A DNA stretch of 33,394 nucleotides from Candidatus Rokuibacteriota bacterium (lineage in GTDB: Bacteria > Methylomirabilota > Methylomirabilia > Rokubacteriales > CSP1-6). The notes under the pieces are model-generated. The model did no database searches. It saw only the letters and a list, made by a program, of their open reading frames with translations, and was not told the origin of the DNA. The stretch spans positions 1 to 33,394 of the forward strand of contig JACPIQ010000100.1 of the NCBI GenBank assembly GCA_016188005.1. The letters run 5' to 3'. Shown here piece by piece: positions 9,652-24,205 of this stretch; within the stretch, counting starts at the first letter, position 1; every line of letters starts with the position of its first letter. A program made the translations under genes and the position numbers.

Positions 9652-10362
9652 TCATGCCAACCCCAGATACGCCTTCTTCACGGAGGAGGTCCCCATCAGC
9701 TGCGCCGCGTCGCCCTCGAGGGCCACTCGGGCGTTCTCGAGGACGTAGCCGTAATCGGCGATCTGCAGGACCTGCTGTACGTTCTGCTCGACGATCACGA
9801 TCGTCATTCCGGACTTTCTCAGCCTGACGACGACCTCGAGGATGTCGGCGATGACTTTCGGCCCCAGGCCGAGGCTCGGTTCGTCGAGCATGCAGAGCGT
9901 CGGGGCCGTCATCAAGGCCCGCGCGATCGACAGCATCTGCTGCTCGCCGCCACTCATCGTCCCGGCCAGTTGCCGCCGGCGCTCGAAGAGGATCGGGAAC
10001 AGCTCGAACACCTGCTCGAAGCCTCCGGCCCGTCCCGTCGCCCGGGCTCGGCCGATGCGCTCGCCCATCTCCAGGTTTTCCCGGACCGTCATCTTCGTGA
10101 ACAGCCGTCGGCCCTCGGGCACGAGCGCGATTCCTTTCCGGACGATGTCGGACGGGCTCGCGCCAACGAGCGACTCGCCGCAGAAGCGGATGTCGCCCAG
10201 ACTCGGGCGGAGGAGTCCCGAGATCGTCTTCAGGATCGTCGACTTCCCCGCGCCGTTCGAGCCGATCAGGGCGACGATCTGCGCCTTGCCGACGTGCAGG
10301 CTCACGTCGCGCACGGCGTGCACCTCGTCGTAGGCCACGGCGAGGTTGCTGACGTCAAGCAC
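9652..10362 (-). CDS. livF: Branched-chain-amino-acid-type ABC transporter ATPase LivF
   Basis: A 236-residue ATPase of the LivF type. It has Walker A GSNGAGKST, the signature MSGGEQQMLSIARAL, Walker B LCMLDEPSLGLGP and the switch histidine region IVIVEQNV. It energises uptake through LivH/LivM from the cytoplasmic face. The start is a GTG that overlaps the end of livM by eight bases, so translation is probably coupled. It is the last of the liv genes and is separated from its partner ATPase LivG by eight metabolic genes plus livH and livM. The family transports branched-chain amino acids, amides, urea or aromatic and aliphatic carboxylates. Given the enzymes in the operon, a carboxylic acid is the more likely substrate here. 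Confidence 0.92.
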   Translation of the reverse strand: MLDVSNLAVAYDEVHAVRDVSLHVGKAQIVALIGSNGAGKSTILKTISGLLRPSLGDIRFCGESLVGASPSDIVRKGIALVPEGRRLFTKMTVRENLEMGERIGRARATGRAGGFEQVFELFPILFERRRQLAGTMSGGEQQMLSIARALMTAPTLCMLDEPSLGLGPKVIADILEVVVRLRKSGMTIVIVEQNVQQVLQIADYGYVLENARVALEGDAAQLMGTSSVKKAYLGLA

Positions 10363-11356
10363 GTCCCGGCGCTCCGGGTCGCTGGCGGCCCCGCCACCAT
10401 CGCGGGCGCCGGAGGCTGATGATCCCTTTCGGCAGGAAGAGGATGATCATGACAAAGACGACTCCGTACATCATCCGGCTCACCGCGGCGAGCCGCTGGC
10501 TGGCACTGATCGGCATCAGGTGACTCAGCTCCTGGATCACCGTCAGGGCCAGAGCGCCGACCAGGGGGCCGAAGACGGTGGCCAGCCCGCCGAAGATCCC
10601 GGCGACGAGGACGTTGATCGCCAGGGCCATGTCGAAGATCACGTCCGGCCGCACGAAGTAGATGTATTGCGCGTAGAACGCACCTCCCACGCCGGCGACG
10701 AAGGTGCTGGTCCCCATGGCCAGGATGCTGATCCTCGACGAGTCGATCCCCATGGCCTCGGCCGCCTCCAGGTCCTCTCGCATCGCGGCGAGCCTCAATC
10801 CGAGCGCCCCGCTCGAGATCCACCAGGAGATGTACAGGGCGCACGCGGTCAGCACCAGGATCACGTAGTAATAGGGGGGCCGCGTCACGAACAAGAAGTG
10901 CCAGGGGTCGTTCCGGACCGGCAGCAGCAGACCCTCGGAGCTGCCGACGAACGGCAGGTTGTTGACGATTCCACGCAGCACGGTCGCGAGGGCAAAGGTC
11001 GCCAGGACGAAATAGACCTCACGCATCCGGTAGCGCGTGCTGATCCACGCCAGCGATACGCCCAGGAGTGCCGAGAGCCCGCCGCCGAGGAACATCCCCA
11101 GCCACGGGCTCACGCCGTAGGACATCAGCAAGAAGACGGAGAGGTAGGCGCCGACGCCCGCGAAGCCGTGGTGACCGAAGGAGAGCAGGCCTGCGTAGCC
11201 CGAACCGATATTCCAGGCGGTCGCCTGGAATCCCAAGTAGAGAGCCAGCGTGGCGATGGTCAGCAGGTAATCCGACGCAACGAGCGGGAGCAACGACGCG
11301 AGTGCCAGCACCGCTCCCGCCGCCAGCCACCGTCGCCCCACCACGGCCCCGCTCAC
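10355..11356 (-). CDS. livM: Branched-chain-type ABC transporter permease LivM
   Basis: A 333-residue permease with about nine to ten hydrophobic segments and the family landmarks NIGSGYAGLLSFGHHGFAGV near the N-terminus and LVAGIFGGLATVFGP near the C-terminus. It forms the membrane channel with LivH. The GTG start at 11356 overlaps the stop of livH in a GTGA arrangement, which argues for translational coupling and against an upstream ATG at 11437 inside livH. Its end overlaps livF by eight bases. Confidence 0.9.
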   Translation of the reverse strand: MSGAVVGRRWLAAGAVLALASLLPLVASDYLLTIATLALYLGFQATAWNIGSGYAGLLSFGHHGFAGVGAYLSVFLLMSYGVSPWLGMFLGGGLSALLGVSLAWISTRYRMREVYFVLATFALATVLRGIVNNLPFVGSSEGLLLPVRNDPWHFLFVTRPPYYYVILVLTACALYISWWISSGALGLRLAAMREDLEAAEAMGIDSSRISILAMGTSTFVAGVGGAFYAQYIYFVRPDVIFDMALAINVLVAGIFGGLATVFGPLVGALALTVIQELSHLMPISASQRLAAVSRMMYGVVFVMIILFLPKGIISLRRPRWWRGRQRPGAPGRA

Positions 11357-12219
11357 GCCGCCCGCGATTGCAGCAATCCGCCCGGCCTGTAGATCAGCAC
11401 CGCGATCAGCAGGCTGAACGTCACCGCGTCGGTCCACCGGGCTCCGAGCCAGACGGTCGTGAAGGTCTCCAGGAGCCCGACCGTGAGGCCCGCCACCAGC
11501 GCGCCCGGGATGCTGCCCAGGGTGCCGAGAACGGCGACGATGAAGCCGTACAGCATGAAATGCATCCCGTCATAGGGCGTCATCACCGAGAAGGTCGACA
11601 GCGCCGACCCCGCGATCGCCGCCGTCGCCACACTGATGGCGAACGCGCCCAGATAGACGCGCTCGACGTCGATCCCGACGAGCAAGGCGCCGACCGAATC
11701 GTTCGCTGACGCGCGGATCATCTTGCCGAAGGTCGTCGTCCGCAGGAACAGCGAGAGCGCGGCGATGGTGACCACGGACAGCACCCCGCCCAGCAGCCGC
11801 GCCACGTTGACTCTCGCCGGGCCGAGGTTGAACGCAGTCGTGTCGTACCGGACCTTCACCGATACGATGTCGGTCCCGAACATGAACACCAGCACGCTTT
11901 CGAGCAACAGGGACACCCCGAGCGTCAGCAACATCATGCCCGTCTCGTTCATCCTCATGCGGAACCGGCCGATCAGCCCCCAGTACACGATCACGCTGAA
12001 CACCACCATCATCGGCGTGACGACGACGGTTCCGACGAGCGGGTCGAGCCCCGCGCTGTTGAAGAGCACGAGGGTGAGGTACATCGTCAGCACAACGAAC
12101 GTGCCGTGGGCGAAATTCACGATGCCGAGCACGCCGAAGACCAGACTGAAGCCGATTCCCATCAACGCGTAGTTGGTGCCCATCAGCACGCCGTTGATCA
12201 GGCCCTGGAGGACGACCAC
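11353..12219 (-). CDS. livH: Branched-chain-type ABC transporter permease LivH
   Basis: A 288-residue membrane protein with about eight transmembrane segments, opening with the LivH-type segment GLINGVLMGTNYALMGIGFS and the conserved FGVLGIVNFAHG. It pairs with LivM to form the transport path. The start is GTG (GTGGTCGTC). It lies 36 bases after mutase large subunit 2 and overlaps livM by four bases, so the transporter membrane genes are coupled to the metabolic genes before them. Confidence 0.9.
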   Translation of the reverse strand: MVVLQGLINGVLMGTNYALMGIGFSLVFGVLGIVNFAHGTFVVLTMYLTLVLFNSAGLDPLVGTVVVTPMMVVFSVIVYWGLIGRFRMRMNETGMMLLTLGVSLLLESVLVFMFGTDIVSVKVRYDTTAFNLGPARVNVARLLGGVLSVVTIAALSLFLRTTTFGKMIRASANDSVGALLVGIDVERVYLGAFAISVATAAIAGSALSTFSVMTPYDGMHFMLYGFIVAVLGTLGSIPGALVAGLTVGLLETFTTVWLGARWTDAVTFSLLIAVLIYRPGGLLQSRAA

Positions 12220-12255: not shown

Positions 12256-13947
12256 TCATACCACGCTGGGCTCCCGGTACTCGCCGAAGACGTCGCGAAG
12301 GACCTGACACATCTCGCCCATCGTGGCGTACGCCTCCACCGCGGACAGGATTGGAGACATGAGGTTGTGGGCGCTGGACGCTTCGCGCGAGGCGGCCGTG
12401 CGGAGGTCGTCGAGCGCGCGCCGCACGGCGTCCTGATCGCGCGCCCGCCGCAGCTCGTGCAGGTCCGCGATCTGCTGGGCCTCGGTCTCGGGGTCATGCC
12501 GGTGCGGCCGCAACACGACCGTGTCGCCCGCCTCGGTGTACTTGTTCTCCCCCACGCGCACGAACTCGCCGCGATCGATTCCCCGCTGGAGCCGATAGGC
12601 GTCCTGCAGGATCTGTCGCTGGACGGCTCCGGACTGGATGCACGCGGTCATGCCGCCCTGCGCCCGGATGCGCGTCAGCTCGGCGTCGATCTGGCTCTCG
12701 TAATCCTTGGTCAGGGACTCGATGAAGTACGAGCCCCCGAGCGGATCCACGGTGTTGGGGATGTTGGTCTCCTCGGCCAGTACCTGCTGCAACCGGATCG
12801 ACAGCACCTGGGCGTCCTTGGCGGGGATCCCGAAGCCCTCGTCGATCGTCCGGAGGCCGATGTGCTGGGCACCGGCGAGCACGCCGATCAACGCCGACAG
12901 CGTGCAGCGCGCGGTGTTGTTGAGCGGCTGGCTCTTCGTGAGCGTCGAGCCGCCCTGCTGTGTCACGATGCGGAACTGGACGGAGTCCGGCCGCCGCGCG
13001 CCGTACTCGGTTCTGAGCTTCCGCGCCCACATCTTGCGCATCGCTCGCAGCTTGGCGATCTCGCTGAAGAAGTCGATGTGATTGTTCGAGGTGACGAAGG
13101 AGAACTTCGGCGCGATATCGTCGGCGGCGAGCCCGCGGCCCATGGCCGCCTCGAGATACGTGAACGCGTTCGCCAGCGTGATCGCCGCTTCATGCAAGCC
13201 GTTGGCGCCGGCCTCCTGGAGATGGATCCCGCAGGGGCTCACGGGCCAGTACAGCGGCACCTGTCGCACGCAGAACTCGATCGTGTCCGTCACGAGTCGG
13301 AGCGCGGCGTCCACGGGGAAGATGTAGTTCCCGCGACAGATGTATTCCTTGAGGATATCGTTCTGGACCGAGCCGCGGAGCCCGTCCAGCGGAAGGCCGC
13401 GCTTGCGTGCCAGGGCGACGTGAATCGCCAGGATCACCGCCGCCTGGGCATTGGCGACCGAGTTCACGAAGACGCCCCGGAAGTCGATCCCGTCGAACAG
13501 CACCTCCCAGTCCCTCAGCGACTTCAACGTCAGCCCCGCCAGACCGACCTCGCCGGCGGCGCGCGGGTGATCCGGGTCGTAGCCGAGCTGCGTGGGCAGG
13601 TCGTACGCCAGGCCGACCGCGGTCTGGCCGCTGGCGATGAGTTCTCTGAGCAGCTTGTTGCTTTCTCTGGCGGACGCGATTCCACCGTACTGCCGGATCA
13701 GCCACAGCTTTCGCCGGAACATCGCAGCGTCGATCCCGCGCGTGTACGGGTAGTCGCCGGGGAACCCGAGGTCCTCGAGGTAGTCGAAGCCACGCGCCTC
13801 GAGGTCAAGCGGGCTGTACACGCGCTGGATCGGCACGCCCGAGAGGTCGGCGAACGGCTTTTCGCCGCCCTCGTCGCCCGCCGGGTTCGACGCTTCCCAG
13901 AGCTGCTGGGCAGCCTTGAGGGTCTTCAAGAACTCGCGGTCGTACAT
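12256..13947 (-). CDS. B12-dependent acyl-CoA mutase, large subunit 2 (MCM family)
   Basis: A 563-residue protein covering the substrate-binding TIM barrel of the methylmalonyl-CoA mutase family. It lacks the C-terminal B12 domain found in full-length mutases, so it must work with a separate B12 subunit. Landmarks are RGFDYLEDLGFPGDYPYTRG, the QNDILKEY segment and HLQEAGA. By my alignment to the Propionibacterium enzyme, Tyr89 corresponds to Tyr87 and the substrate-carboxylate Arg207 to Arg205. The Tyr of the active-site Tyr-His pair is replaced (Ile241-His242). AAGGAGA precedes the ATG. The retained Arg favours a substrate with a carboxylate on the acyl group, but the Ile makes ordinary methylmalonyl-CoA activity uncertain. 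The stop is 36 bases before livH. Confidence 0.88.
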   Translation of the reverse strand: MYDREFLKTLKAAQQLWEASNPAGDEGGEKPFADLSGVPIQRVYSPLDLEARGFDYLEDLGFPGDYPYTRGIDAAMFRRKLWLIRQYGGIASARESNKLLRELIASGQTAVGLAYDLPTQLGYDPDHPRAAGEVGLAGLTLKSLRDWEVLFDGIDFRGVFVNSVANAQAAVILAIHVALARKRGLPLDGLRGSVQNDILKEYICRGNYIFPVDAALRLVTDTIEFCVRQVPLYWPVSPCGIHLQEAGANGLHEAAITLANAFTYLEAAMGRGLAADDIAPKFSFVTSNNHIDFFSEIAKLRAMRKMWARKLRTEYGARRPDSVQFRIVTQQGGSTLTKSQPLNNTARCTLSALIGVLAGAQHIGLRTIDEGFGIPAKDAQVLSIRLQQVLAEETNIPNTVDPLGGSYFIESLTKDYESQIDAELTRIRAQGGMTACIQSGAVQRQILQDAYRLQRGIDRGEFVRVGENKYTEAGDTVVLRPHRHDPETEAQQIADLHELRRARDQDAVRRALDDLRTAASREASSAHNLMSPILSAVEAYATMGEMCQVLRDVFGEYREPSVV

Positions 13948-13977: not shown

Positions 13978-15147
13978 TCATCGGCCGAGGATCGCGACGC
14001 AGCTCAACGCGCCCGGCCCGCCGACGTTGTGCGCCAGGCCGAGGGTCGCGTTCCGCACCTGCCGTTCCCCGGCCTTGCCCTGCAGTTGCGTCGTGAGCTC
14101 GTAGATCATCCGCATGCCGGTGGCGCCGACCGGATGGCCACAGCTGAGGAGCCCGCCACTCGGGTTGACCGGCAACCGGCCCTTCAGGTCGGCATGCCCC
14201 TCCTCCACGAACCGCCACCCCTCACCGGGCGGACAGAACCGGAGGTCCTCGCAGTTGAGGAGCTCGGTGATCGTGAAGCAGTCGTGCACCTCGGCGAAGT
14301 CGATCTCGGCCGCCGGGTCCTTGATGCCGGCCTCGCGATAGGCCTGCGCGGCGGCGTCCCTCGTCCGCGGGAAGCCCAGGAAGTCGAAGTTCGGGTCGAA
14401 CACCGTGCGGAAGCTTCCCACCGACAGTCCGATGCCCTTCACGCGCACGAAGTCGTCGCGGATCGTCCGGGCGATCTCCGGCGAGGTGATGATCGCCGCG
14501 GCGGCGCCATCGGTCGTCGGGCAGGCATCCAGCACGCCGAGCGGCTTGGCGACGATCGGAGCGTTCAGGACGGCGTCGAGGTCGACGCGCTGACCGAGGT
14601 GCGCTTTCGGGTTCATGGCGCCGTTGGCATGGTTCTTGACCGAGACGAGCGCCAGGTGTCTCTTCTCGGCCTTCCGTTCATGAAGGTACCGCTGGGCGCA
14701 GAGGGCGAAGAATCCCGGCGCCGTGCGCCCCTTGATGATGAAGGGATGACCGTTCGCGACCGAGTTCGCGACCAGACTCTCCCGCGGGCCGACGTCCCGC
14801 ATCTTCTCCACGCCCACCGCGAGGACGATCTCGTGCACACCCGAGGCGACGGCCAGGCACGCGTTCCGGAAGGCGTCGAGTCCCGACGCGCAATAGTTGC
14901 TGACGCGCGTGACCGGCCCGTGGAAGAAGCGCAAGGGATCGCTGAGCGACGTGCCGGCGTCGCCCTCGTAGTGGCCGCGGCCGGCGGTGCCGAGCCAGGC
15001 GGCCTGGAGGTCCGGCACGCCGAGCTTGGCATCCGCGCAGGCCTCGTCGACCGCCTCCACGATCAGCTCGAAGTAGCCCTGGTCGAAGCTCTCGCCGAAC
15101 CGCGTGCAGCCGACCCCGATGACCGCCACTCGATCCTTGAGCCCCAT
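13978..15147 (-). CDS. Thiolase-family acyltransferase
   Basis: A 389-residue thiolase-fold protein of the SCP-x/acetyl-CoA-acetyltransferase-like type. The nucleophile is Cys86 in NYCASGLDAF. The HDCFTITE, CGHPVGATG and C-terminal HNVGGPGAL motifs supply the other catalytic positions. It should cleave or form beta-ketoacyl-CoA. The ATG follows the HMG-synthase-like/DUF35 gene stop by two bases, with a GGAGGG site, so the two are almost certainly cotranslated. In archaea, thiolase and HMG-CoA synthase form a complex bridged by a DUF35 protein, and the same trio occurs here as two adjacent genes. The physiological direction and substrate are inferred only. Confidence 0.9.
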   Translation of the reverse strand: MGLKDRVAVIGVGCTRFGESFDQGYFELIVEAVDEACADAKLGVPDLQAAWLGTAGRGHYEGDAGTSLSDPLRFFHGPVTRVSNYCASGLDAFRNACLAVASGVHEIVLAVGVEKMRDVGPRESLVANSVANGHPFIIKGRTAPGFFALCAQRYLHERKAEKRHLALVSVKNHANGAMNPKAHLGQRVDLDAVLNAPIVAKPLGVLDACPTTDGAAAAIITSPEIARTIRDDFVRVKGIGLSVGSFRTVFDPNFDFLGFPRTRDAAAQAYREAGIKDPAAEIDFAEVHDCFTITELLNCEDLRFCPPGEGWRFVEEGHADLKGRLPVNPSGGLLSCGHPVGATGMRMIYELTTQLQGKAGERQVRNATLGLAHNVGGPGALSCVAILGR

Positions 15148-15149
15148 CG

Positions 15150-16616
15150 CTATCCCTCCGTCGCCGCGCCGCGACCGGCCGCGCCTGCGGCCCACGCTCC
15201 GCCGTCCGCCCCGGCCGGCCGGATCTTCCAGAAGTAGTTGTGGTGCCCGAGGCCCTCGTGCAGCCGACGGAACGTCAGCCTCACCGGCTGTCCGATGGCG
15301 ACGGCCTCCGGCTCGCAGTCGGTCATCTGGCCGTAGAACCGCCCGCCGCCATCCAGATCGACGCACGCCATCGCCAAGGGAGGGTTCTCGTTCAGGAAGA
15401 GATGGTCGACGGTGTAGGTGTAGATCGTGCCGCTGCGGCCGAGCGTGTGGTCGCAGAGCTTCCGGCCGCCACACGTGATGCAGGTCTGACGCCGGGGAAA
15501 CTGCACCGTCCGGCAGTCGGCACAGCGGCTGCCGCAGAAGCGGATATTCTGCTTCTCCTCCCGCCAGAACAGCGCGAGCGACGACCAGGGGCGGTATTCG
15601 GCGCGCGGCAGCGCGCCGCGAAACCGCAAGAACCGTCCGTAGGCGCCGAGCTCGACCCCGCCGGTCATCTGTTCCGTGAATCGCCGCGCCACCTCCGGGC
15701 CGTGCGCTTCGATGGCGTCGGTGGCCTGAAGCACGCTCGCGTCAGCCCCGTCCCCGTAATTCGCGAGCAGGACCCGATCGCCCCCGCGCAGCCCTGACAG
15801 ACCGGCCGCGAGCAACAGGGGCGCCATCGCGGTTCCCGCGTATCCGATCTGGCGGACGAGGTCGGCGCCCTCCGAACGCTCGCACTTGAGGACCTTCAGG
15901 AGTCCCCGCAGGCTCGCGCGGTCGGGCGCCGGGATGAGGACTCGCGCCACGTCCCCGAGCGTGAGCCGGTTCGTCTCGAGCACCGTGGTGATCACGCGCC
16001 GCATGATGTCGACGTACCCCTTGCGCTGGATGAAGTGCGCGTCACCGCTGCGGATCTCGGCGTCCCCGTCGCGGCGCCAGAAATCGACGAAGGAGCTATC
16101 CTCGTGGTGATGGCCGACCGGCGTCAGCACGCACTGCTCGCTGCCGAGGACCAGAGCGCCCGCGCCCGCGCCGATGGTTCGCTCGAGGGCCGACGAGGGC
16201 TCGGCGGCACGGGCGTCCGCCGCCACGACGAGCACCGTCCGGAACCGCCCCGCCGACAATCCGTCGAAAGCCGCCTGCAGCGCGAGGCTGGCGCCGCGGA
16301 CGGAGTTGCAGAAGTCGACGGTGGCGACGCCCTCCCGCAGATCGCAGGCGGCGGCGACGACGGCGGAGCAGAGCTTCTCGCTGAACGGAGGCGTCGTGGA
16401 CGCGAAATAGAGCGCATCGATCGCGGCCGAGTCGATCCGGCCCGCCGCGAGCGCGTCCTGCGCCGCCTCCACCGCCATCGTGATCGAATCTTCGTCGTAG
16501 TTGGCCACGGCGAGCGCGCTCGGCGCACCCTTCTCCGCGCCCCAGGCCTGCGCGAGCGTCTTGCCAGTCAACCGGTAGCGCGGGACGTACGATCCGACGG
16601 CACAGATGCCGGCCAT
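15150..16616 (-). CDS. HMG-CoA-synthase-like protein fused to a DUF35 zinc-ribbon/OB domain
   Basis: A 488-residue fusion. Residues 1-350 show the KAS-III/HMG-CoA synthase fold (GICAVGSYVPRYRL start, nucleophile Cys103 in VDFCNSVRGAS, and GDRVLLANYGDGADA near its end). Residues 360-470 are a DUF35 domain: a zinc ribbon C365-C368-C379-C382 followed by an OB-fold segment. At the place where HMG-CoA synthases have HQPNG with the catalytic His, this protein reads LIPAPDRAS, so that His appears to be missing. It may therefore not make HMG-CoA, and could instead be a condensing or scaffold subunit for the adjacent thiolase. The ATG at 16616 is preceded by GGGAGAG; upstream in-frame codons look non-coding. 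Confidence 0.87.
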   Translation of the reverse strand: MAGICAVGSYVPRYRLTGKTLAQAWGAEKGAPSALAVANYDEDSITMAVEAAQDALAAGRIDSAAIDALYFASTTPPFSEKLCSAVVAAACDLREGVATVDFCNSVRGASLALQAAFDGLSAGRFRTVLVVAADARAAEPSSALERTIGAGAGALVLGSEQCVLTPVGHHHEDSSFVDFWRRDGDAEIRSGDAHFIQRKGYVDIMRRVITTVLETNRLTLGDVARVLIPAPDRASLRGLLKVLKCERSEGADLVRQIGYAGTAMAPLLLAAGLSGLRGGDRVLLANYGDGADASVLQATDAIEAHGPEVARRFTEQMTGGVELGAYGRFLRFRGALPRAEYRPWSSLALFWREEKQNIRFCGSRCADCRTVQFPRRQTCITCGGRKLCDHTLGRSGTIYTYTVDHLFLNENPPLAMACVDLDGGGRFYGQMTDCEPEAVAIGQPVRLTFRRLHEGLGHHNYFWKIRPAGADGGAWAAGAAGRGAATEG

Positions 16617-16679: not shown

Positions 16680-17468
16680 TTACGCGAGCGGCGCTTCTCC
16701 GTACAGCAGTCGGACGGAATCGAGCAACTGTCGCGACGGGCGCGGGAACGCCGCCCGACGGCTCACCGGCTGGCGGTTCACCCTCGCCAGGTCGACCAGC
16801 ATCTCGGCGACCTTCACCGCGGCGGCCGCCGCGTCCAGGACGATCGCCCCGTCGATGGTCTTCAGCCCGCTCTCGACGACGACCTGATTCAAGCACCCGC
16901 AGGCCGGGATGAGCACCTCAGCCCCCCGCTCGAGCAGCACGTGCGCTTCGCGCGTGAACTTCTCGATCACGGGAGCGGGGTCGGCGAACCAGCGATCGAC
17001 CTCCTCCAGCTTGATGTCGATGCTCTGGACGCCGGCGAGGCGATCCCGGTAGCCGTACTGGTCGACGTTCCGGAGGATGTTCGCCAGGCTCGGGCGCCAG
17101 TGCCCGATCAGGCCGAACGTGTCCCCGAGGAGCCCCGAGATGATCAGGGCGCTCTCGCCCAGGAACGTGACCGGGATGTCGAGGACCCCCTTCATCTCGA
17201 AGTACGCGGGATCGCCGAAGCAGCCGACGACGAACGCGTCGTAGCCCTCCGCCTGCGCGCGAAAGCCGTTGTCGATGATCTGCTTGGTGTTGAGGAACCG
17301 GAAATACTTGAACGTATCGAGCGAGGGCGTCATCCGCTCGACCCCATGGATGTCGATCGTCGTGCCCGGGCGGCCGATCCCGGTGACGTTCTTGATCAGC
17401 GCTCGCTCGTACGCGGCGAACGTCGGATTCTTCCCGATCGAGGAGCTGCTCTGATACCAGATCCGCAT
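16680..17468 (-). CDS. Asp/Glu/hydantoin racemase-family protein
   Basis: A 262-residue protein of the Asp/Glu racemase superfamily. It has the two expected active-site cysteines, Cys83 in VVGCFGDP and Cys190 (or 192) in LIPACGCLN. Members include hydantoin and aspartate racemases, maleate isomerase and arylmalonate decarboxylase, all using paired cysteines for proton transfer at a carbon next to a carboxylate. The start ATG is preceded by GGAGGAG. It lies 29 bases after the luciferase-like gene and before the HMG-synthase-like gene. In this setting it could epimerise or isomerise the acid or acyl group between mutase steps, a role played elsewhere by a different methylmalonyl-CoA epimerase family. 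That role is inferred. Confidence 0.82.
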   Translation of the reverse strand: MRIWYQSSSSIGKNPTFAAYERALIKNVTGIGRPGTTIDIHGVERMTPSLDTFKYFRFLNTKQIIDNGFRAQAEGYDAFVVGCFGDPAYFEMKGVLDIPVTFLGESALIISGLLGDTFGLIGHWRPSLANILRNVDQYGYRDRLAGVQSIDIKLEEVDRWFADPAPVIEKFTREAHVLLERGAEVLIPACGCLNQVVVESGLKTIDGAIVLDAAAAAVKVAEMLVDLARVNRQPVSRRAAFPRPSRQLLDSVRLLYGEAPLA

Positions 17469-17497: not shown

Positions 17498-18514
17498 CTA
17501 GCGGGCGGCCAGTGACTTGACAGCGGGGATCACGGCCCTGCCGATGAGCTGGATCGTTCGCAAGACCTTCGCCTGCGCCATGCCCGGCCATTGCATCCGG
17601 AACAAGAAATGGTTGACGCCCAGCCGGGCGTGGAGCTCGGTGATCGCCTTGACGCAGTCCTCGGGGTCGCCCAGGATGAAGCGCTCGGTGATCAACCGGT
17701 CCATGTTGTAGTAGTCATCGACGTGCTCGCCGCTGCGCCGCTTCCAGAGGGCGTAGGCCGAGTACTTGTTGCGCAGATAGGGCTCTGCCTCGCCGAGCGC
17801 CGTCTTCCGGTGTGGGGCCACGTACGTCTCGACGATCATCCCGATCTCGGTGTCCGGGCTCTTGCCGGCCGCGACGCGCGCGGCGCAGTAGAGCTTCATC
17901 TGCCGGTCGAGATCTTGGAGCTCGTCGCTCGGGGTCATGACCCAGGCGTCGCCCAGCCGCGCCGCTCGCTCCACGGCGGCGTCCGTCTTCGCGCCGATCC
18001 AGATCGGCGGATGCGGCTTCTGGACCGGCCGCGTTCGCGTCGTGACGTTGTCGAGCTGGAAGTGCTGGCCCCGGAACGTGACGGATTCCTCGGTCCAGAG
18101 CTTCGTCATCACCGCCAGCGATTCCTCGAACCGGCTCACCCGCTCGCGCTTCCGGAGCCCGAAGGCCGCAAACTCCTCGTCCCGGTAGCCCATGCCGACG
18201 CCGAGCACGAGCTTGCCGTCGCAGATGGCGTCGAGCGTCGCGACGTGCTCGGCGAGTTCCACCGGATGGTACAGGGGCAAGATCAGCACGCCGGTGCCGA
18301 AGACCATGCCGCGACCTTCGCCGGCCAGTCGAGCCAGGAGCGCCAGCGGGTGGAGGAAGGCGTACGGGTTGGCGAGGAAATGCTGGGCGAAGAAGACGGA
18401 GTCGAAGCCGCAGTCGCGCGCGGTGGCCACCTGCTCCACGTGGTCACGGATCTTCGCGGCGAAGTTCTCCGTGGGCGCGTGCTGCGACGAGATGAAGAGC
18501 CCGTACCTCACCAC
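17498..18514 (-). CDS. Luciferase-like (LLM-class) flavin-dependent oxidoreductase
   Basis: A protein of about 338 residues with the bacterial-luciferase/F420-oxidoreductase barrel. It opens VRYGLFISSQH, and has DSVFFAQHF, ILPLYHPVELAEHVATLD and GVGMGYRDEEF, the usual flavin- or F420-binding landmarks. It ends with KVLRTIQLIGRAVIP. Family members oxidise or hydroxylate small organic substrates using FMNH2 or F420. Tandem GTG codons at 18514 and 18511 are the likely starts, 16 bases after mutase large subunit 1. A second, deleted copy lies upstream of the solute-binding protein, so this gene type appears twice in the locus. The cofactor and substrate cannot be told from the sequence. Confidence 0.87.
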   Translation of the reverse strand: MVRYGLFISSQHAPTENFAAKIRDHVEQVATARDCGFDSVFFAQHFLANPYAFLHPLALLARLAGEGRGMVFGTGVLILPLYHPVELAEHVATLDAICDGKLVLGVGMGYRDEEFAAFGLRKRERVSRFEESLAVMTKLWTEESVTFRGQHFQLDNVTTRTRPVQKPHPPIWIGAKTDAAVERAARLGDAWVMTPSDELQDLDRQMKLYCAARVAAGKSPDTEIGMIVETYVAPHRKTALGEAEPYLRNKYSAYALWKRRSGEHVDDYYNMDRLITERFILGDPEDCVKAITELHARLGVNHFLFRMQWPGMAQAKVLRTIQLIGRAVIPAVKSLAAR

Positions 18515-18530: not shown

Positions 18531-20213
18531 TCACACGACGGTCGGCATGCGATATTCGCCGAGGACCTGCCGGAGCACCCCGCAGATCTCTCCCATGGTC
18601 GCGTAGGCTTCGACCGCCTCCAGGATCGGCTCGACGAGGTTCGGGCTCGCGGGAGCCTCGGCGGCCGCGCGGAGCCGCCGCAGCGCCCGCTGGACGCCGC
18701 CGTCGTCGCGGGTTCGCCGCAGGGCCTCCAGCCGCTCGCGACACTGCCGCGCGATGTCGGCGCTGGGCACGTAATAGGAATTCTGATTGGGGCTCCGGTA
18801 GGGGTTCTCGGCGTCGCGCCGGTAGCCGAGCAGGACCTTCCCACCCCCCTCGAGCGCGGTCTGGAAAGCGTAGGCGCTGTTGCTGATCTCCGTCGAGATG
18901 TAGCCGCTCTCGATGGCGGCCACGATGCCCCCCATCTTCTCGATGACCGCGAGCTTGTCTTCCACGCGCGACTTGATCTCGGCGGTCATCGACTCGACGT
19001 AGTAGGAGCCGCCGAGCGGGTCGATGGTGTCCATGGCGCCCGTCTCCTGGGCCACCATGCGCGCGATGCGGATCGAAATGATGCTCGCCTCCTCGCTCGG
19101 GATGCCGTACGGCTCGTCGATCGTGCGCAGACCGAGGCTCTGCACCCCCGCGAGCGCCGCCACCAGCGCGGCCAGCGTGATCCGGCCGAAGTTCAGGAGG
19201 CCTTCACCCGCGGTCAGGCAGATGCCGCCCTGGGCGCAGTGCATCTTCAGCGTCATGGATTCGGGCAGCGTCGCCCCGTATCGGGTCTTCATCAGCTCGG
19301 CCCACAACCGGCGCATCGCGCGGATCTTCGCGACCTCGCAGAGCAGGTCCCGGTGGTTGACGTACCCGAGGAAGGCGATGTTGCGCGCGAAGCGGTCGAT
19401 CGGCAGCCCCCGCTGCGTGACTGCGTCGCAGTACTCGATGGCCGCCGCCAGCGCGAAGGCGACCTGCTGAACCTGATCGGCGCCGGCTTCGCCGAGGTGA
19501 TAGAGCGCGATGTTGTTGGCGTAGAAGCGCGGCATCTTCTCGGTCACGTACTCGATGATGTCCGCGCTGAGCCGCACCGCCTGTCGGGGCGGGAAGATGT
19601 ACTTCCCGCACGCCGTGTACTCCTTCATGACGTCGTTCTGCACGCAGCCGGTCAGCAGGTCCAGCGGGACGCCCTGCTTCCTGGCCACGGCGATGTGCAT
19701 GGCCAGGATCACGGGCGCGATCGGGTTGACCACGTACGTGACGCCGATACGCCGCAGGTCGATCCCGTCGAGGAACTCTTCCATGTCGGCCAGCGAGCTG
19801 ATCGTCAACCCCACCCGCCCGATCTCTCCTTCGGCCAGCGGGTGATCGATGTCATAGCCCATGTTCGTCGGCAGGTCGCAGGCGACGTGGATGCTGTCCT
19901 GGCCCTCGGCGATGAGCTTCTTGAACAGGCGGTTGGTGTCCCGGGCGGTGGCGAACCCCGCGTACTGACCGATCCCGTAGATCTTGTCCCGGTATCCCGT
20001 CACGTCGGCGCCGCGGGTGAAGGGGAACTCGCCCGGGAACCCGAGGTCGTCGCGGTAGTCGAAGCCCCGGGCGGCGAGGTCCAGGGGCGTGTAGAGCTCC
20101 TTGACCGGGATCCCGCTGTCAGTGGAAAACGCGATCGCCCGCGGCTTCGTCAACGCCTGCTCGTGCGTCTTCCGCCACGATGCAGCCTGCTGCTCGAGGT
20201 CATCGTCGCGCAT
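18531..20213 (-). CDS. B12-dependent acyl-CoA mutase, large subunit 1 (MCM family)
   Basis: A 560-residue MCM-type substrate barrel without its own B12 domain. Landmarks are RGFDYRDDLGFPGEFPFTRG, QYAGFATARDTN, CVQNDVMKEY and LYHLGEAGA. By my alignment to methylmalonyl-CoA mutase it keeps Tyr89 (Tyr84) and the Tyr-His pair (Tyr238-His239). The carboxylate-binding Arg207 position is a cysteine (Cys202, ACGKYIFPP). That argues against methylmalonyl-CoA as substrate. The ATG at 20213 is preceded by GGGAGGA; an ATG at 20234 is also in frame. It overlaps the B12-subunit gene by 14 bases, so that subunit is its most likely partner. It is paralogous to large subunit 2: both end YATMGE-x-C-x-VLR...GEYR. 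Confidence 0.88.
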   Translation of the reverse strand: MRDDDLEQQAASWRKTHEQALTKPRAIAFSTDSGIPVKELYTPLDLAARGFDYRDDLGFPGEFPFTRGADVTGYRDKIYGIGQYAGFATARDTNRLFKKLIAEGQDSIHVACDLPTNMGYDIDHPLAEGEIGRVGLTISSLADMEEFLDGIDLRRIGVTYVVNPIAPVILAMHIAVARKQGVPLDLLTGCVQNDVMKEYTACGKYIFPPRQAVRLSADIIEYVTEKMPRFYANNIALYHLGEAGADQVQQVAFALAAAIEYCDAVTQRGLPIDRFARNIAFLGYVNHRDLLCEVAKIRAMRRLWAELMKTRYGATLPESMTLKMHCAQGGICLTAGEGLLNFGRITLAALVAALAGVQSLGLRTIDEPYGIPSEEASIISIRIARMVAQETGAMDTIDPLGGSYYVESMTAEIKSRVEDKLAVIEKMGGIVAAIESGYISTEISNSAYAFQTALEGGGKVLLGYRRDAENPYRSPNQNSYYVPSADIARQCRERLEALRRTRDDGGVQRALRRLRAAAEAPASPNLVEPILEAVEAYATMGEICGVLRQVLGEYRMPTVV

Positions 20214-20625
20214 CGGCCGTCCTCCCGGTGGCATCGATCGTCCGCCTCATGTAGTCGACGATGTCGTCGAGCTTGGTCTGTTGACCGAACACCGCGCTGA
20301 CCCCGAGCCTGAGCAGCTCATCCACGTCCTCGGCGGGAATGAATCCACCGACCACGAGCGTGACCTCCGGCGCTCCCGCGACACGGAGCAGGTCCTGCAG
20401 CCGCGCGACGATGCGTTGATGCGCGCCTGACAGGATGCTGAGCCCGATGACCGACACGTCCTCTTCCAGCGCAATCTTCACGATCTCGTCCGGCAACCGA
20501 TGCAATCCGCTGTACACGACCTCGAGGCCGGCGTCCCGCAGGGCCACCACCACCAGCTTGGCGCCCCGATCGTGCCCGTCCAGACCGGCTTTCGCGATGA
20601 GGATCCGACCGTGCCGCTCCGACAT
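20200..20625 (-). CDS. Stand-alone B12-binding subunit of an acyl-CoA mutase
   Basis: A 141-residue Rossmann-like cobalamin-binding domain. It has the base-off/His-on motif DGHDRG (lower-ligand His18), LSILSGAH and VVGGFIPAEDVDEL, all matching the C-terminal domain of methylmalonyl-CoA mutase. The ATG at 20625 is preceded by GGAGGGGGG; an upstream ATG at 20646 would overlap the ligase stop and is not preferred. It overlaps mutase large subunit 1 by 14 bases. It is the only B12 domain in the window, so it may serve both large subunits. No MeaB/ArgK-type chaperone or adenosyltransferase is seen nearby. Confidence 0.92.
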   Translation of the reverse strand: MSERHGRILIAKAGLDGHDRGAKLVVVALRDAGLEVVYSGLHRLPDEIVKIALEEDVSVIGLSILSGAHQRIVARLQDLLRVAGAPEVTLVVGGFIPAEDVDELLRLGVSAVFGQQTKLDDIVDYMRRTIDATGRTADARR

Positions 20626-20642: not shown

Positions 20643-22142
20643 TCACCGTGCCGATCGGCGCAGGATCTTGCCCGTGTCACTCTTCGGCAGCTCGCTCACG
20701 AATTCGACCTCCGCGGGCGCTTTGTAGTGGGCGAGCCGGCCCCGGCAGTGCTCGATGAGCTCGCTCGCCGACGCCTGGGCGCCCTTCTTGAGGACGATCA
20801 TCGCCCTCGGGACCTGCCCTTTCACCGGGTGCGGGACGCCGATCACGAGACACTCCTTGACCGCTGAGTGGCTGTAGAGCACGTCCTCGGTCTCCGTAGG
20901 GTATACCTTGAACCCCGACGTGATGATCAGATCGTCCTTACGGTCGACCAGGTAGAGGAAGCCCTCCTCGTCGAACTTTCCGAGGTCCCCGCTGTGCGAC
21001 CAGCCGTCGCGGTAGTGCCGTGCCGTCAACGCGGGCAGTTTCCAAAAGCCGGGAGACATCGTCGGGCCGCGAAAGACGATCTCCCCGACCTCCCCTGCCG
21101 GCAGCACGCGATTGGCCTCGTCCACGACCCTGACTTCGAGCCCCGCGACGGGCAGCGGCAAGCCGATGGAGCTGTACTTCCTCGGTCCGTCGTACGGGTG
21201 GGCGGTGAGCATCGACCCCGTCATGCCGTAGGTGTTGATGACCACCGCCGCCACCCGTTCCTCGAACTCGCGGATCAGGTTCGCCGGCACCGGCGCCCCG
21301 CCCACGACGCACGTGCGCAGGCTCGTCAGGTCGTAACGCAGCAGATCGGGACAGTTCAGAATCTGGATGAACAGGGTCGGCACGCCCGCCAGGAAGGTCA
21401 CGCGCTCGGACGCGATCTTCGCGAGCGCGGTCTTCGGGGCCCATTCCCGCAACACGGAGATGGCCCCGCCCTGGTAGAGCGGCAGAAACATGCCGATGTA
21501 ACAGCCGAACGTGTGGAACATCGGCAACGCCGCCAGCGCCCGGTCCTCCGGGGTGACGCGGTAGGCGCGCGCGAGCGAGGTCGCGATCTCGGCCCGCACC
21601 CGATGGGAAATCGGCACGCCCTTGGGCCTTCCGGTCGTGCCGGCGGTGAAGAACAGGGAGGCGAGATCGTCGTCCCGGCAGTCGACGAGGCCGTCGGCGG
21701 CGGTCGAGGCCGCGAGGAGTCGGCCGAGGTTGTAGGTGCCATAGACGTCCCGGTCGCCCGTGGTGATGATCCACTCGAGCTGGGGCAGGTCCCACCAGAG
21801 GTGATCGATCTTGTCGAGAAAGTCCGGGTCGGCCAGCAGCGCGCGGACCTGGCCGCTCTTCAGGACATAGTCGATCGTCGACTCGTCGTGCCGCTTGTTG
21901 ATGCCGACGACCGTCGCGCCCATGCGCTGCACGGCGAAATGGCCGATGACGAACTCCAGCGAGTTGTCGAGCGCCAGGCCCACCCGGTCGTGGCGGCGCA
22001 CCCCGAGCTGCGTGAGGGCGTCGATCAGCCTGTTACTGGCGGTGAGCAGGGCCGCGTAGGTGACGGTTCGATCGCCGTCGGTCACGGCGATCTTCGCCGG
22101 CGAGCCGGCGGCGTGGCGATCCAGACAGTCGGCGACGTTCAT
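20643..22142 (-). CDS. Acyl-CoA ligase (class I adenylate-forming)
   Basis: A 499-residue ATP-dependent acid:CoA ligase. It has the AMP-binding loop FFTAGTTGRPKGVPISH, NTYGMTG, the hinge/adenylate motif YRDGWSHSGDLGKFDEEGF and the catalytic lysine in KSDTGKILRR. It should activate an imported carboxylic acid to its CoA thioester, the substrate form for the mutases. Its ATG overlaps the livG stop by four bases (ATGA), so it is translationally coupled to the transporter. The chain-length or ring specificity cannot be read from sequence. The loop has Ala in the usual second Ser position, a tolerated change. Confidence 0.9.
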   Translation of the reverse strand: MNVADCLDRHAAGSPAKIAVTDGDRTVTYAALLTASNRLIDALTQLGVRRHDRVGLALDNSLEFVIGHFAVQRMGATVVGINKRHDESTIDYVLKSGQVRALLADPDFLDKIDHLWWDLPQLEWIITTGDRDVYGTYNLGRLLAASTAADGLVDCRDDDLASLFFTAGTTGRPKGVPISHRVRAEIATSLARAYRVTPEDRALAALPMFHTFGCYIGMFLPLYQGGAISVLREWAPKTALAKIASERVTFLAGVPTLFIQILNCPDLLRYDLTSLRTCVVGGAPVPANLIREFEERVAAVVINTYGMTGSMLTAHPYDGPRKYSSIGLPLPVAGLEVRVVDEANRVLPAGEVGEIVFRGPTMSPGFWKLPALTARHYRDGWSHSGDLGKFDEEGFLYLVDRKDDLIITSGFKVYPTETEDVLYSHSAVKECLVIGVPHPVKGQVPRAMIVLKKGAQASASELIEHCRGRLAHYKAPAEVEFVSELPKSDTGKILRRSAR

Positions 22143-22885
22143 CGGTCGAGTGTCTCGTCGGGCTGGGCGACCTCGTATGCCCGGCCCAGGTACGCCTTGA
22201 TCACTTCCTCGTTCCGGCTGATCTCGGCCGGCGTTCCTTCGGCGAGCTTGCACCCGAAGTTCAGGACCACGATGCGCGGACAGAAGCTCATCACGGCGTG
22301 CAGGACATGCTCGACCACCAGGATCGCGGTCCCGGTCCTCGCGTGAACGGTTCGGAGAATCGAGAGCAGCTCGTCGACCTCCGCCGGGAGCAACCCCGCC
22401 ATCACCTCGTCCAGGAGCAGCAACGAGGGCTTCGTCGCCAGCGCCTTGGCCAGCTCGAGCCGTTTCCGCTCCGGCGTGGTCAGGTCCCGTCCGAACCTGC
22501 CGCTCTTGTCGCCGAGGTGAAGCAGATCGAGCACCTCGGCGGCGAACGCCCGGGCGTCCTCGATCGTCGCCAGATGGTTCAGCGCTCCGGCCGCCGCCAT
22601 TTCGGCGACGGTCAGCCCGTTGAACGGCCGCGTGATCTGGAACGTGCGGGCGATCCCCCGCTTGCAGATCTCGTGCGGGCTGAGCCGCGTGATGTCGGCG
22701 CCATTCCAGGTGACCCGGCCCGAGTCGGCATGGAAGAAGCCGCCGATCAGGTTGAAGACCGTCGTCTTGCCGGCGCCGTTCGGTCCGATGAGGCCGACGA
22801 CCTCCCCCGGACGAATCGTCATGCTGACGTCCGTCACGGCCTTGATGCCGCCGAAGCTCTTCGTCAGCCGGGTCAATTCGAGCAC
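22139..22885 (-). CDS. livG: Branched-chain-type ABC transporter ATPase LivG
   Basis: A 248-residue ATPase with Walker A GPNGAGKTT, Walker B LLLLDEVMAGL and the LivG-type ARTFQITRPF segment. The ABC signature is degenerate (LTTPERKRLELAKAL instead of LSGGQ), which I take as a variant within LivG-type proteins. It starts with GTG, 15 bases after the solute-binding protein gene, and its end overlaps the ligase gene by four bases. It should heterodimerise with LivF encoded at the far end of the same operon. Confidence 0.9.
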   Translation of the reverse strand: MLELTRLTKSFGGIKAVTDVSMTIRPGEVVGLIGPNGAGKTTVFNLIGGFFHADSGRVTWNGADITRLSPHEICKRGIARTFQITRPFNGLTVAEMAAAGALNHLATIEDARAFAAEVLDLLHLGDKSGRFGRDLTTPERKRLELAKALATKPSLLLLDEVMAGLLPAEVDELLSILRTVHARTGTAILVVEHVLHAVMSFCPRIVVLNFGCKLAEGTPAEISRNEEVIKAYLGRAYEVAQPDETLDR

Positions 22886-22900
22886 AGGAGATCCCTCAGG

Positions 22901-24205
22901 CTAACCCCTGGACCACCTCGGCCGCGGCCAGACCAGCTCGACCGTCTTGATCGACTCGGGATAGACCGGGCGATGCTTGCCGCCACGAACCTGGGTGATG
23001 ATGACGTCGGCACCGATATTGAGCCCCTGGTCGTTGAACTGGAGCGGCGTCGGCAAGACCCAGTACCGCTCGCCGGGGTTGAGCCGCAGGTTCCGGATCG
23101 CGTCCCGGATCTTGTCCCGGTCGGTGGACGCGGCCGCTTCCACGGCGCCCCAGATGACGCCGATCGTCCAGTACCCGATCCCGGCAACGGTATCCATTTC
23201 CCGCCCCGTCGCCGTCTTGAAACGCTTCACGAGGTCGGCCGCGACCTTGGCCTCCGGATTGAAGTCGGTGCCCCCCAGCATGTATTCGGCGTCCTGCTTG
23301 AGGTTGTCGACCGCAGTCCGGTCAACGGCACCCCCGAGGATCCCGATGTAGTTCGGGTTGAAATCGAGCGACTTCATGTCCTTGACGAAGATGACCGTAT
23401 CGGCAGGCTTGCCATGGTGGAAGATCGTGTCGACGCCGGCTTGCTTGCACGACGTGAGTGGCGCGCTGAAATCCCTGGCCGTCGCGGCCGAGTAGCGGAC
23501 ATAGTCGACCACGTTGAACCCGACTTCCTTGGCGCGCGCCAGGGCGTTCTCGCCGATCTGCGTCCCGGCCGTGTCGTCCTGCACGATGATCGCGACCTTC
23601 GTCGGCATCACGCCGGTCTTCTGTCCGGCCCACTTGCTGAAGTCCACGGATTTTCTCGCCAGCTGGATCGCCGTCGGCCGGAGCATGAAAACGTACTTGA
23701 ATCCCCGCTGGACGATCTGAGGCGAGCTATCCCCGCCGTCGACGAACGGCACTCGAAGGCGCTCGGCGATGCTGGCGGCCGTGACCGCGACGCTGCTGGT
23801 CACGCACCCCGTGAGGACCTGGACCTTCTGCTGTGCCAGCTTCTCTGTCCGCGCCGCCCCGATGTCGGGCTTGCTCTCGTGATCCTCGACGACGAGCTTG
23901 AGCCTCGCGCCCCCGAGCGACTTCACTCCGCCCGCCGCGTTGATCTCGTTGACGGCGAGCTGCATGGTCTCGGCCGCGCCCTTCCCCCATTGCGCCGTGA
24001 TGCCCGTCAGGCCGACCACCGCACCGATAACGACCTCCCCGGCCGCTGCGGCAGCCGGCGCGACCTCGACCCACCTGGAGGCGCTCGACACCAGCGGCAG
24101 GCCGGCCACCCCTGAGGCGACCCTCATGAACGACCGGCGCGTGATCCTGCCGGAGCTCCGATCGGGTTGACGAGAACGGGCGTGGTCGAGTTTACCGTGG
24201 CGCAT
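22901..24205 (-). CDS. ABC transporter solute-binding protein (Peripl_BP_6/LivJ-like)
   Basis: A 434-residue periplasmic binding protein. The N-terminus has a twin-arginine export signal (ITRRSFMRVASGVAGLPLV) rather than an ordinary Sec signal, so it is probably exported folded. The mature protein has the two-lobe leucine/amide-binding fold (IGAVVGLTGITAQWGKGA; ESKPDIGAARTEKLAQQ). It captures the substrate for LivHMGF. The ATG is preceded by AGAGGAG. It is the first transporter gene of the unit and overlaps the end of a luciferase-like remnant. The family binds amino acids, amides or aromatic and aliphatic acids, so the ligand is open. Confidence 0.9.
   Translation of the reverse strand: MRHGKLDHARSRQPDRSSGRITRRSFMRVASGVAGLPLVSSASRWVEVAPAAAAAGEVVIGAVVGLTGITAQWGKGAAETMQLAVNEINAAGGVKSLGGARLKLVVEDHESKPDIGAARTEKLAQQKVQVLTGCVTSSVAVTAASIAERLRVPFVDGGDSSPQIVQRGFKYVFMLRPTAIQLARKSVDFSKWAGQKTGVMPTKVAIIVQDDTAGTQIGENALARAKEVGFNVVDYVRYSAATARDFSAPLTSCKQAGVDTIFHHGKPADTVIFVKDMKSLDFNPNYIGILGGAVDRTAVDNLKQDAEYMLGGTDFNPEAKVAADLVKRFKTATGREMDTVAGIGYWTIGVIWGAVEAAASTDRDKIRDAIRNLRLNPGERYWVLPTPLQFNDQGLNIGADVIITQVRGGKHRPVYPESIKTVELVWPRPRWSRG

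Follow-up and report, generated by a model that had tools for sequence, protein, structure and literature searches.

The gene pair and its operon

The DNA analysed here (the window) is a stretch of 33,394 nucleotides from a Candidatus Rokuibacteriota bacterium (GenBank assembly GCA_016188005.1, contig JACPIQ010000100.1). It carries a gene in which an HMG-CoA synthase (HMGS)-like domain is fused to a DUF35 part, followed by a thiolase gene (Table 1). The fusion starts with an ATG preceded by the SD-like sequence AGGAGGGAG, and two bases separate its stop codon from the thiolase start (TAG-CG-ATG). All three modules (HMGS-like, DUF35 and thiolase) are co-encoded, two within the fusion and the third adjoining it. 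ORFs, coordinates and domain matches bear out the original prediction on this point, which was a fusion of DUF35 to a synthase-like domain with a thiolase two bases on. In Pfam, residues 354-451 match zf-ChsH2 and OB_ChsH2_C (previously DUF35), and the part before them gives only weak KASIII matches. The AF2 model of the fusion as a single chain has a pLDDT of 87.8 and a pTM of 0.90.

Table 1. Features of the gene pair and of the surrounding operon
Feature	Position	Strand	Basis or remark
HMGS-like/DUF35 fusion protein, 488 aa	15150..16616	-	ORF and translation; Pfam, NCBIfam and PDB matches; AF2 model
HMGS-like domain, residues 1-340, without triad (Thr74, Val106, Pro229)	15597..16616	-	Aligned to MtHMGS Glu82, Cys114, His238
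Thr74 at catalytic Glu82 position	16395..16397	-	Alignment; Glu in 0/110
Cys103, not at nucleophile position	16308..16310	-	Aligns with MtHMGS Glu111; Cys in 6/110
Val106 at nucleophile (Cys114) position	16299..16301	-	Alignment; Cys in 0/110
VLIPAPDRAS, residues 226-235, replacing HQPNG region; Pro229 at His position	15912..15941	-	His in 1/110
DUF35 part (zinc ribbon and OB fold), residues 350-468	15213..15569	-	PF12172, PF01796 over cut-off
Zinc site Cys365-x2-Cys368-x10-Cys379-x2-Cys382	15471..15524	-	Kept in 110/110 fused proteins
Thiolase subunit, 389 aa; Cys86, HDCF 288-291, His338, Gly376	13978..15147	-	NF004810 over cut-off
LIV-type ABC transporter, two permeases and ATPase	9652..12219	-	PF02653 twice, PF00005
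B12-dependent acyl-CoA mutase large subunit 1	12256..13947	-	PF01642; best PDB match 2-hydroxyisobutyryl-CoA mutase 4r3u
Asp/Glu/hydantoin racemase-family protein, directly upstream of fusion	16680..17468	-	PF01177; start by SD-like site
Luciferase-like (LLM) oxidoreductase	17498..18511	-	PF00296, TIGR03619
B12-dependent acyl-CoA mutase large subunit 2	18531..20234	-	PF01642; best PDB match 4r3u
B12-binding small subunit	20200..20625	-	PF02310, TIGR00640 over cut-off; start by SD-like site
Acyl-CoA ligase (AMP-forming)	20643..22142	-	PF00501, PF13193; start inferred from overlap with upstream gene
LIV-type ABC transporter, ATPase and substrate-binding protein	22139..24205	-	PF00005, PF13458

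The pair belongs to an operon of transporter, CoA-ligase and B12-mutase genes. On the minus strand, the order is SDR, binding protein, ATPase, CoA ligase, B12 subunit, mutase, luciferase-like protein, racemase-like protein, fusion, thiolase, mutase, two permeases and ATPase; a LysR gene lies on the opposite strand. This one operon encodes two mutase large subunits and one B12 subunit. Despite their best match, both mutases differ from 2-hydroxyisobutyryl-CoA mutase at substrate-pocket positions. At the position that we take to correspond to Arg207 of methylmalonyl-CoA mutase, Arg is found in subunit 1 and Cys in subunit 2, the HcmA equivalent being Gln. No HMGS scored over the cut-off in the genome to which the window belongs.

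The HMGS triad in the window fusion

Triad columns were read from a phmmer alignment and from a MAFFT alignment of 75 homologues, with the Methanothermococcus HMGS (MtHMGS) as reference; the His of the HQPNG motif is a catalytic residue in HMGS. Glu82 and Cys114 are the catalytic residues of the archaeal HMGS (PMC6392133). As judged from these alignments, the window fusion lacks the whole triad of Glu, Cys and His. Loss of the HQPNG His had been predicted and was confirmed, a Pro standing in its column, while the loss of the catalytic Glu, replaced by Thr74, is an addition to the original prediction. The other part of that claim, a retained catalytic Cys103, did not hold: this residue lies three positions before the nucleophile column, which is occupied by Val106, and in the model (residue numbering offset by +1) it ends a strand ahead of the turn leading into the next helix. 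Alignment position, model and low conservation rule out Cys103 as the catalytic Cys. Glu145 (Glu153 in MtHMGS) is ruled out as the catalytic Glu, which is Glu82 (PMC6392133). The HMGS models score the fusion below their cut-offs (TIGR00748, 122.4 vs 353.35 bits; PRK04262, 172.3 vs 244 bits), and neither on score nor on catalytic residues would it be classed as an archaeal HMGS.

Triad loss across the fused family

Homologues were collected by a pattern scan of GTDB genomes, giving 66 loci, and by further genome searches with the protein and then with a profile, which are independent of the scan patterns. Across 110 fused proteins, the Glu82 column holds no Glu (92 Thr), the Cys114 column no Cys (mostly Leu, Val, Thr and Ile), and the His column a single His, along with 41 Tyr and 33 Pro. 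Consistent absence of the His from the fusion clade had been put forward as a check, and the residue is missing in 109 of the 110. Because it is fixed across 110 homologues, the triad loss can be regarded as family-wide and as more than chance. All four DUF35 zinc cysteines are kept throughout. Nowhere in the HMGS-like half of these 110 proteins does a replacement His or Cys reach 70% conservation, which rules out an equivalent conserved residue of either kind elsewhere in this half; the highest Cys, at position 55, is found in 68% of the family and is Ala in the window.

Neither the sole fused copy with His in the HQPNG His column (L011:3153-4592) nor the sole one with Cys in that column (L161) has the Glu or the nucleophilic Cys. 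Two of the archaeal genomes with fused proteins also encode unfused HMG-CoA synthases (L159 and L160), in which the triad is complete. Five other unfused relatives have none of the three.

A maximum-likelihood tree was calculated for the HMGS-like half with the three trait columns omitted. In it, the active enzymes split from all inactive ones (support 100/99) and one change suffices for the loss of the triad. PhlA, the MucABC subunit and the other unfused inactive proteins fall outside a fused group of 60 rows (99/100). One more fused row, L163, has no resolved placement, and a tree with all fused rows in one clade cannot be rejected (p-AU 0.45). The order of the branches suggests that activity was lost before the fusion arose. 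The triad loss is both older and more complete than first held. The window fusion forms a long branch (1.36) whose position within the fused group is not resolved. It lacks some family-conserved residues, and no homologue in 80 relatives exceeds 46% identity to it.

The fused family ranges over many bacterial phyla, Helarchaeota, Archaeoglobi and alkane-associated methanogen lineages, and no published description of it was found in the open literature searched. The 2.1 Mb genome of Dehalococcoidia bin1158 (G095, locus L018) holds at least six full-length fusion copies, with five partial matches besides. Two fusion-thiolase pairs stand in tandem at five loci from Dehalococcoidia and other Chloroflexi (L017, L019, L023, L026 and L033), always in the same order, with Pro at the His position in the first and Tyr or Phe in the second.

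The thiolase partner and its neighbourhood

The window thiolase scores over the NF004810 cut-off (475 vs 403 bits). Its Cys86, H288-D289-C290-F291, His338 and Gly376 recur in 65-66 of the 66 partner thiolases, the HDCF motif in all of them, and it has Cys, HDCF, GH and NxGG in common with the thiolase of the archaeal complex. HDCF is the SCP-2 thiolase motif, the DUF35-linked aldolases having YDHF or YDCY (PMC12329534). By its residues (nucleophilic Cys, HDCF, GHP-type His and oxyanion Gly), the window thiolase is of the SCP2/archaeal type.

A same-strand thiolase lies 3' of the fusion, mostly within less than 100 bp, in nearly every locus with room for one, and the order of fusion then thiolase is kept in bacteria and archaea. 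Pairwise distances of the two partners correlate (r = 0.86, against a shuffled maximum of 0.34), which indicates co-inheritance and is not proof of contact. Where a locus holds two units, fusion and thiolase agree in their nearest neighbour in 8 of 14 pairs. The genome of the window also holds a fusion paralogue of 42% identity (G000:C121:6881-8278; L002, L110), with no thiolase in the 4.4-16 kb of DNA examined; many genomes of the family have counterparts of it, whose identity with the window protein is about 41-43%.

Acyl-CoA or beta-oxidation neighbours, counted as acyl-CoA dehydrogenase, CoA ligase, enoyl-CoA hydratase, CoA-transferase, MaoC-like and hydroxyacyl-CoA dehydrogenase genes, occur at 46 of the 66 loci, and the setting expected for the degradative direction originally proposed is borne out. 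At a Syntrophomonas locus (L045), the pair occupies the spot where a beta-oxidation operon would carry its thiolase. The closest thiolases (55-57%), with fusions at 38-40%, come from three genomes of the same class as that of the window, where they have a LIV-type transporter and a CoA ligase as neighbours.

Comparison with known complexes

Among solved structures, the HMGS from 6ESQ, the archaeal complex, is the best match of the N-terminal part of the fusion (2.5e-25), followed by PhlA and the subunit from MucABC (9VBO); the C-terminal part matches the DUF35 protein of 6ESQ and PhlB. Foldseek gave 6esq_J as the best hit for the fusion model (TM 0.89 by target), with PhlABC and MucABC also high, and 6esq_A for the thiolase model (TMq 0.90), followed by archaeal thiolases, SCP2 thiolases and BbsB. 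The subunit folds of both window proteins match the solved thiolase/HMGS(-like)/DUF35 complexes of the 6ESQ and PhlABC type, and the proposed kinship to the archaeal complex stands, 6ESQ being the best fold match for both.

The archaeal complex has the same three components as the window pair, but its DUF35 protein is separate and its HMGS is active (Glu82, Cys114 and His), whereas in the window DUF35 is fused and the triad is gone. PhlABC (PpATase, Pseudomonas protegens) and MucABC (Streptococcus macacae) also combine an inactive HMGS-like subunit with DUF35 and a catalytic thiolase-like subunit. These are three separate proteins, unlike the window fusion, and serve biosynthesis by CoA-independent or tetramate acylation, whereas the window pair has thiolase-type residues and a breakdown-type context. 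PhlA is inactive, with Gly115 and Cys83 in place of the catalytic Cys and Glu; the substrate of PhlABC is touched by PhlC residues only, and a functional enzyme was obtained only when the whole operon was expressed (PMC6392133). Fusions of DUF35 with domains of the thiolase superfamily were already described in a 2010 paper on a DUF35 structure, in which PhlA is termed an inactive member (PMC2954200).

Two other DUF35-linked systems were considered. Benzoylsuccinyl-CoA thiolase BbsAB is a degradative thiolase with a DUF35-type zinc-finger subunit, and BbsB is among the top fold matches of the thiolase, but BbsAB has no HMGS-like domain. Scores of the window pair with the BbsA and BbsB models NF053627 and NF053628 (28.8/250 and 172/750 bits) are far below the cut-offs, and by score the pair would not be classed as BbsAB. 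In the steroid aldolases Ltp2-ChsH2 and Sal-Shy, the DUF35 domain that binds the thiolase fold is itself part of a fusion with another protein. They have YDHF/YDCY motifs and a hydratase partner (PMC12329534), and Sal has Gly in place of the thiolase Cys, whereas the window thiolase has HDCF and keeps the nucleophilic Cys86; by these residues it would not be classed as a steroid aldolase.

Discussion

We consider the pair to be, most likely, a heteromeric beta-ketothiolase of the SCP2/archaeal type that works in the breakdown direction with a non-catalytic HMGS-like/DUF35 scaffold. Fusion and thiolase would form an assembly like PhlABC and the archaeal thiolase/HMGS/DUF35 complex, with the HMGS-like and DUF35 domains placed beside the CoA/acyl pocket of the thiolase. 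Since the partner has no catalytic residues and the pair recurs in bacteria and archaea amid breakdown genes, it is probably a scaffold and not an enzyme, and the most likely role suggested by these analogies is to complete the CoA/acyl pocket. The enzyme would act thiolytically, late in an acyl-CoA breakdown route: an acid imported by the LIV-type transporter would be activated with CoA, rearranged by the B12 mutase, oxidised and then cleaved with CoA. The thiolytic direction we infer from gene context only, the PhlABC-type relatives being biosynthetic. Counted against this explanation are the C121 paralogue without a thiolase and, for the window fusion, the long branch and the lost conserved residues.

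These last two features, with the lack of any homologue above 46% identity in 80 relatives, would fit a decaying copy carried in the operon without function. We hold this to be very improbable, given an intact ORF, the kept zinc Cys4 and a confident fold, the two-base coupling to an intact thiolase, and a triad loss that is family-wide and not recent. A channelled complex of thiolase and condensing enzyme, with a Cys kept in the HMGS-like domain and altered chemistry, was the original proposal. Fold and arrangement do resemble the channelling archaeal complex, and a Cys does lie near the nucleophile position; yet this position is Val106, Cys103 is rare in the family, and Glu82 and the His are gone. 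With Glu, Cys and His all lost and no conserved His or Cys as substitute, there is no recognisable second active site, and for this reason a channelled two-enzyme complex appears unlikely; in the form first proposed, it is scarcely credible.

The HMGS-like pocket, though devoid of its triad, may instead have a role of its own. It could, for instance, use family-invariant residues to bind acyl groups or CoA at a second site, or to act as a gate, and so determine which 3-ketoacyl-CoA is accepted by the thiolase. We regard this as rather unlikely; if true, the fused clade would be a widespread class of heteromeric thiolases with a dead synthase as specificity subunit. A new active or binding site in the HMGS-like domain, built on Asp41-Glu42-Asp43, Arg136 and Glu145 and acting on or selecting the acyl-CoA before thiolysis, seems improbable. 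These residues are conserved at 99-100% in the 110 fused proteins, Arg136 and Glu145 being common to PhlA, but Asp41-Asp43 and Glu145 also occur in active HMGS and PhlA and may be structural, and no His or Cys is conserved. We give little credence to a biosynthetic or acyl transferase complex like PhlABC or MucABC in place of a degradative thiolase. The closest inactive HMGS-like subunits of known structure are indeed parts of acyltransferases; against this stand the HDCF motif in all 66 partners, the higher scores of the thiolase with archaeal and SCP2 thiolases and BbsB than with PhlC or MucC, and the beta-oxidation-type context.

The pair is a fused variant, in a breakdown-type context, of the known thiolase/HMGS-like/DUF35 complexes, and the arrangement is real and widespread. 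By family models, the fused proteins lie closest to HMG-CoA synthase, an assignment that would wrongly imply a part in mevalonate or HMG-CoA metabolism; it is better to regard them as non-catalytic thiolase partners. Given its breadth, the fused family is relevant to the question of how acyl-CoA breakdown is finished in anaerobes and uncultured lineages, and also to that of how a dead enzyme persists as a conserved subunit. Two further contigs of the window's own genome, G000:C74 (L108) and G000:C16 (L109), carry DUF35-thiolase-mutase clusters without an HMGS-like domain, L108 also having LIV-type transporter genes. In Desulfotomaculum arcticum, an acetone cluster with a B12-mutase has a DUF35 protein (04021) numbered beside the acetone-induced acetyl-CoA acetyltransferase 04022 (PMC8084838).
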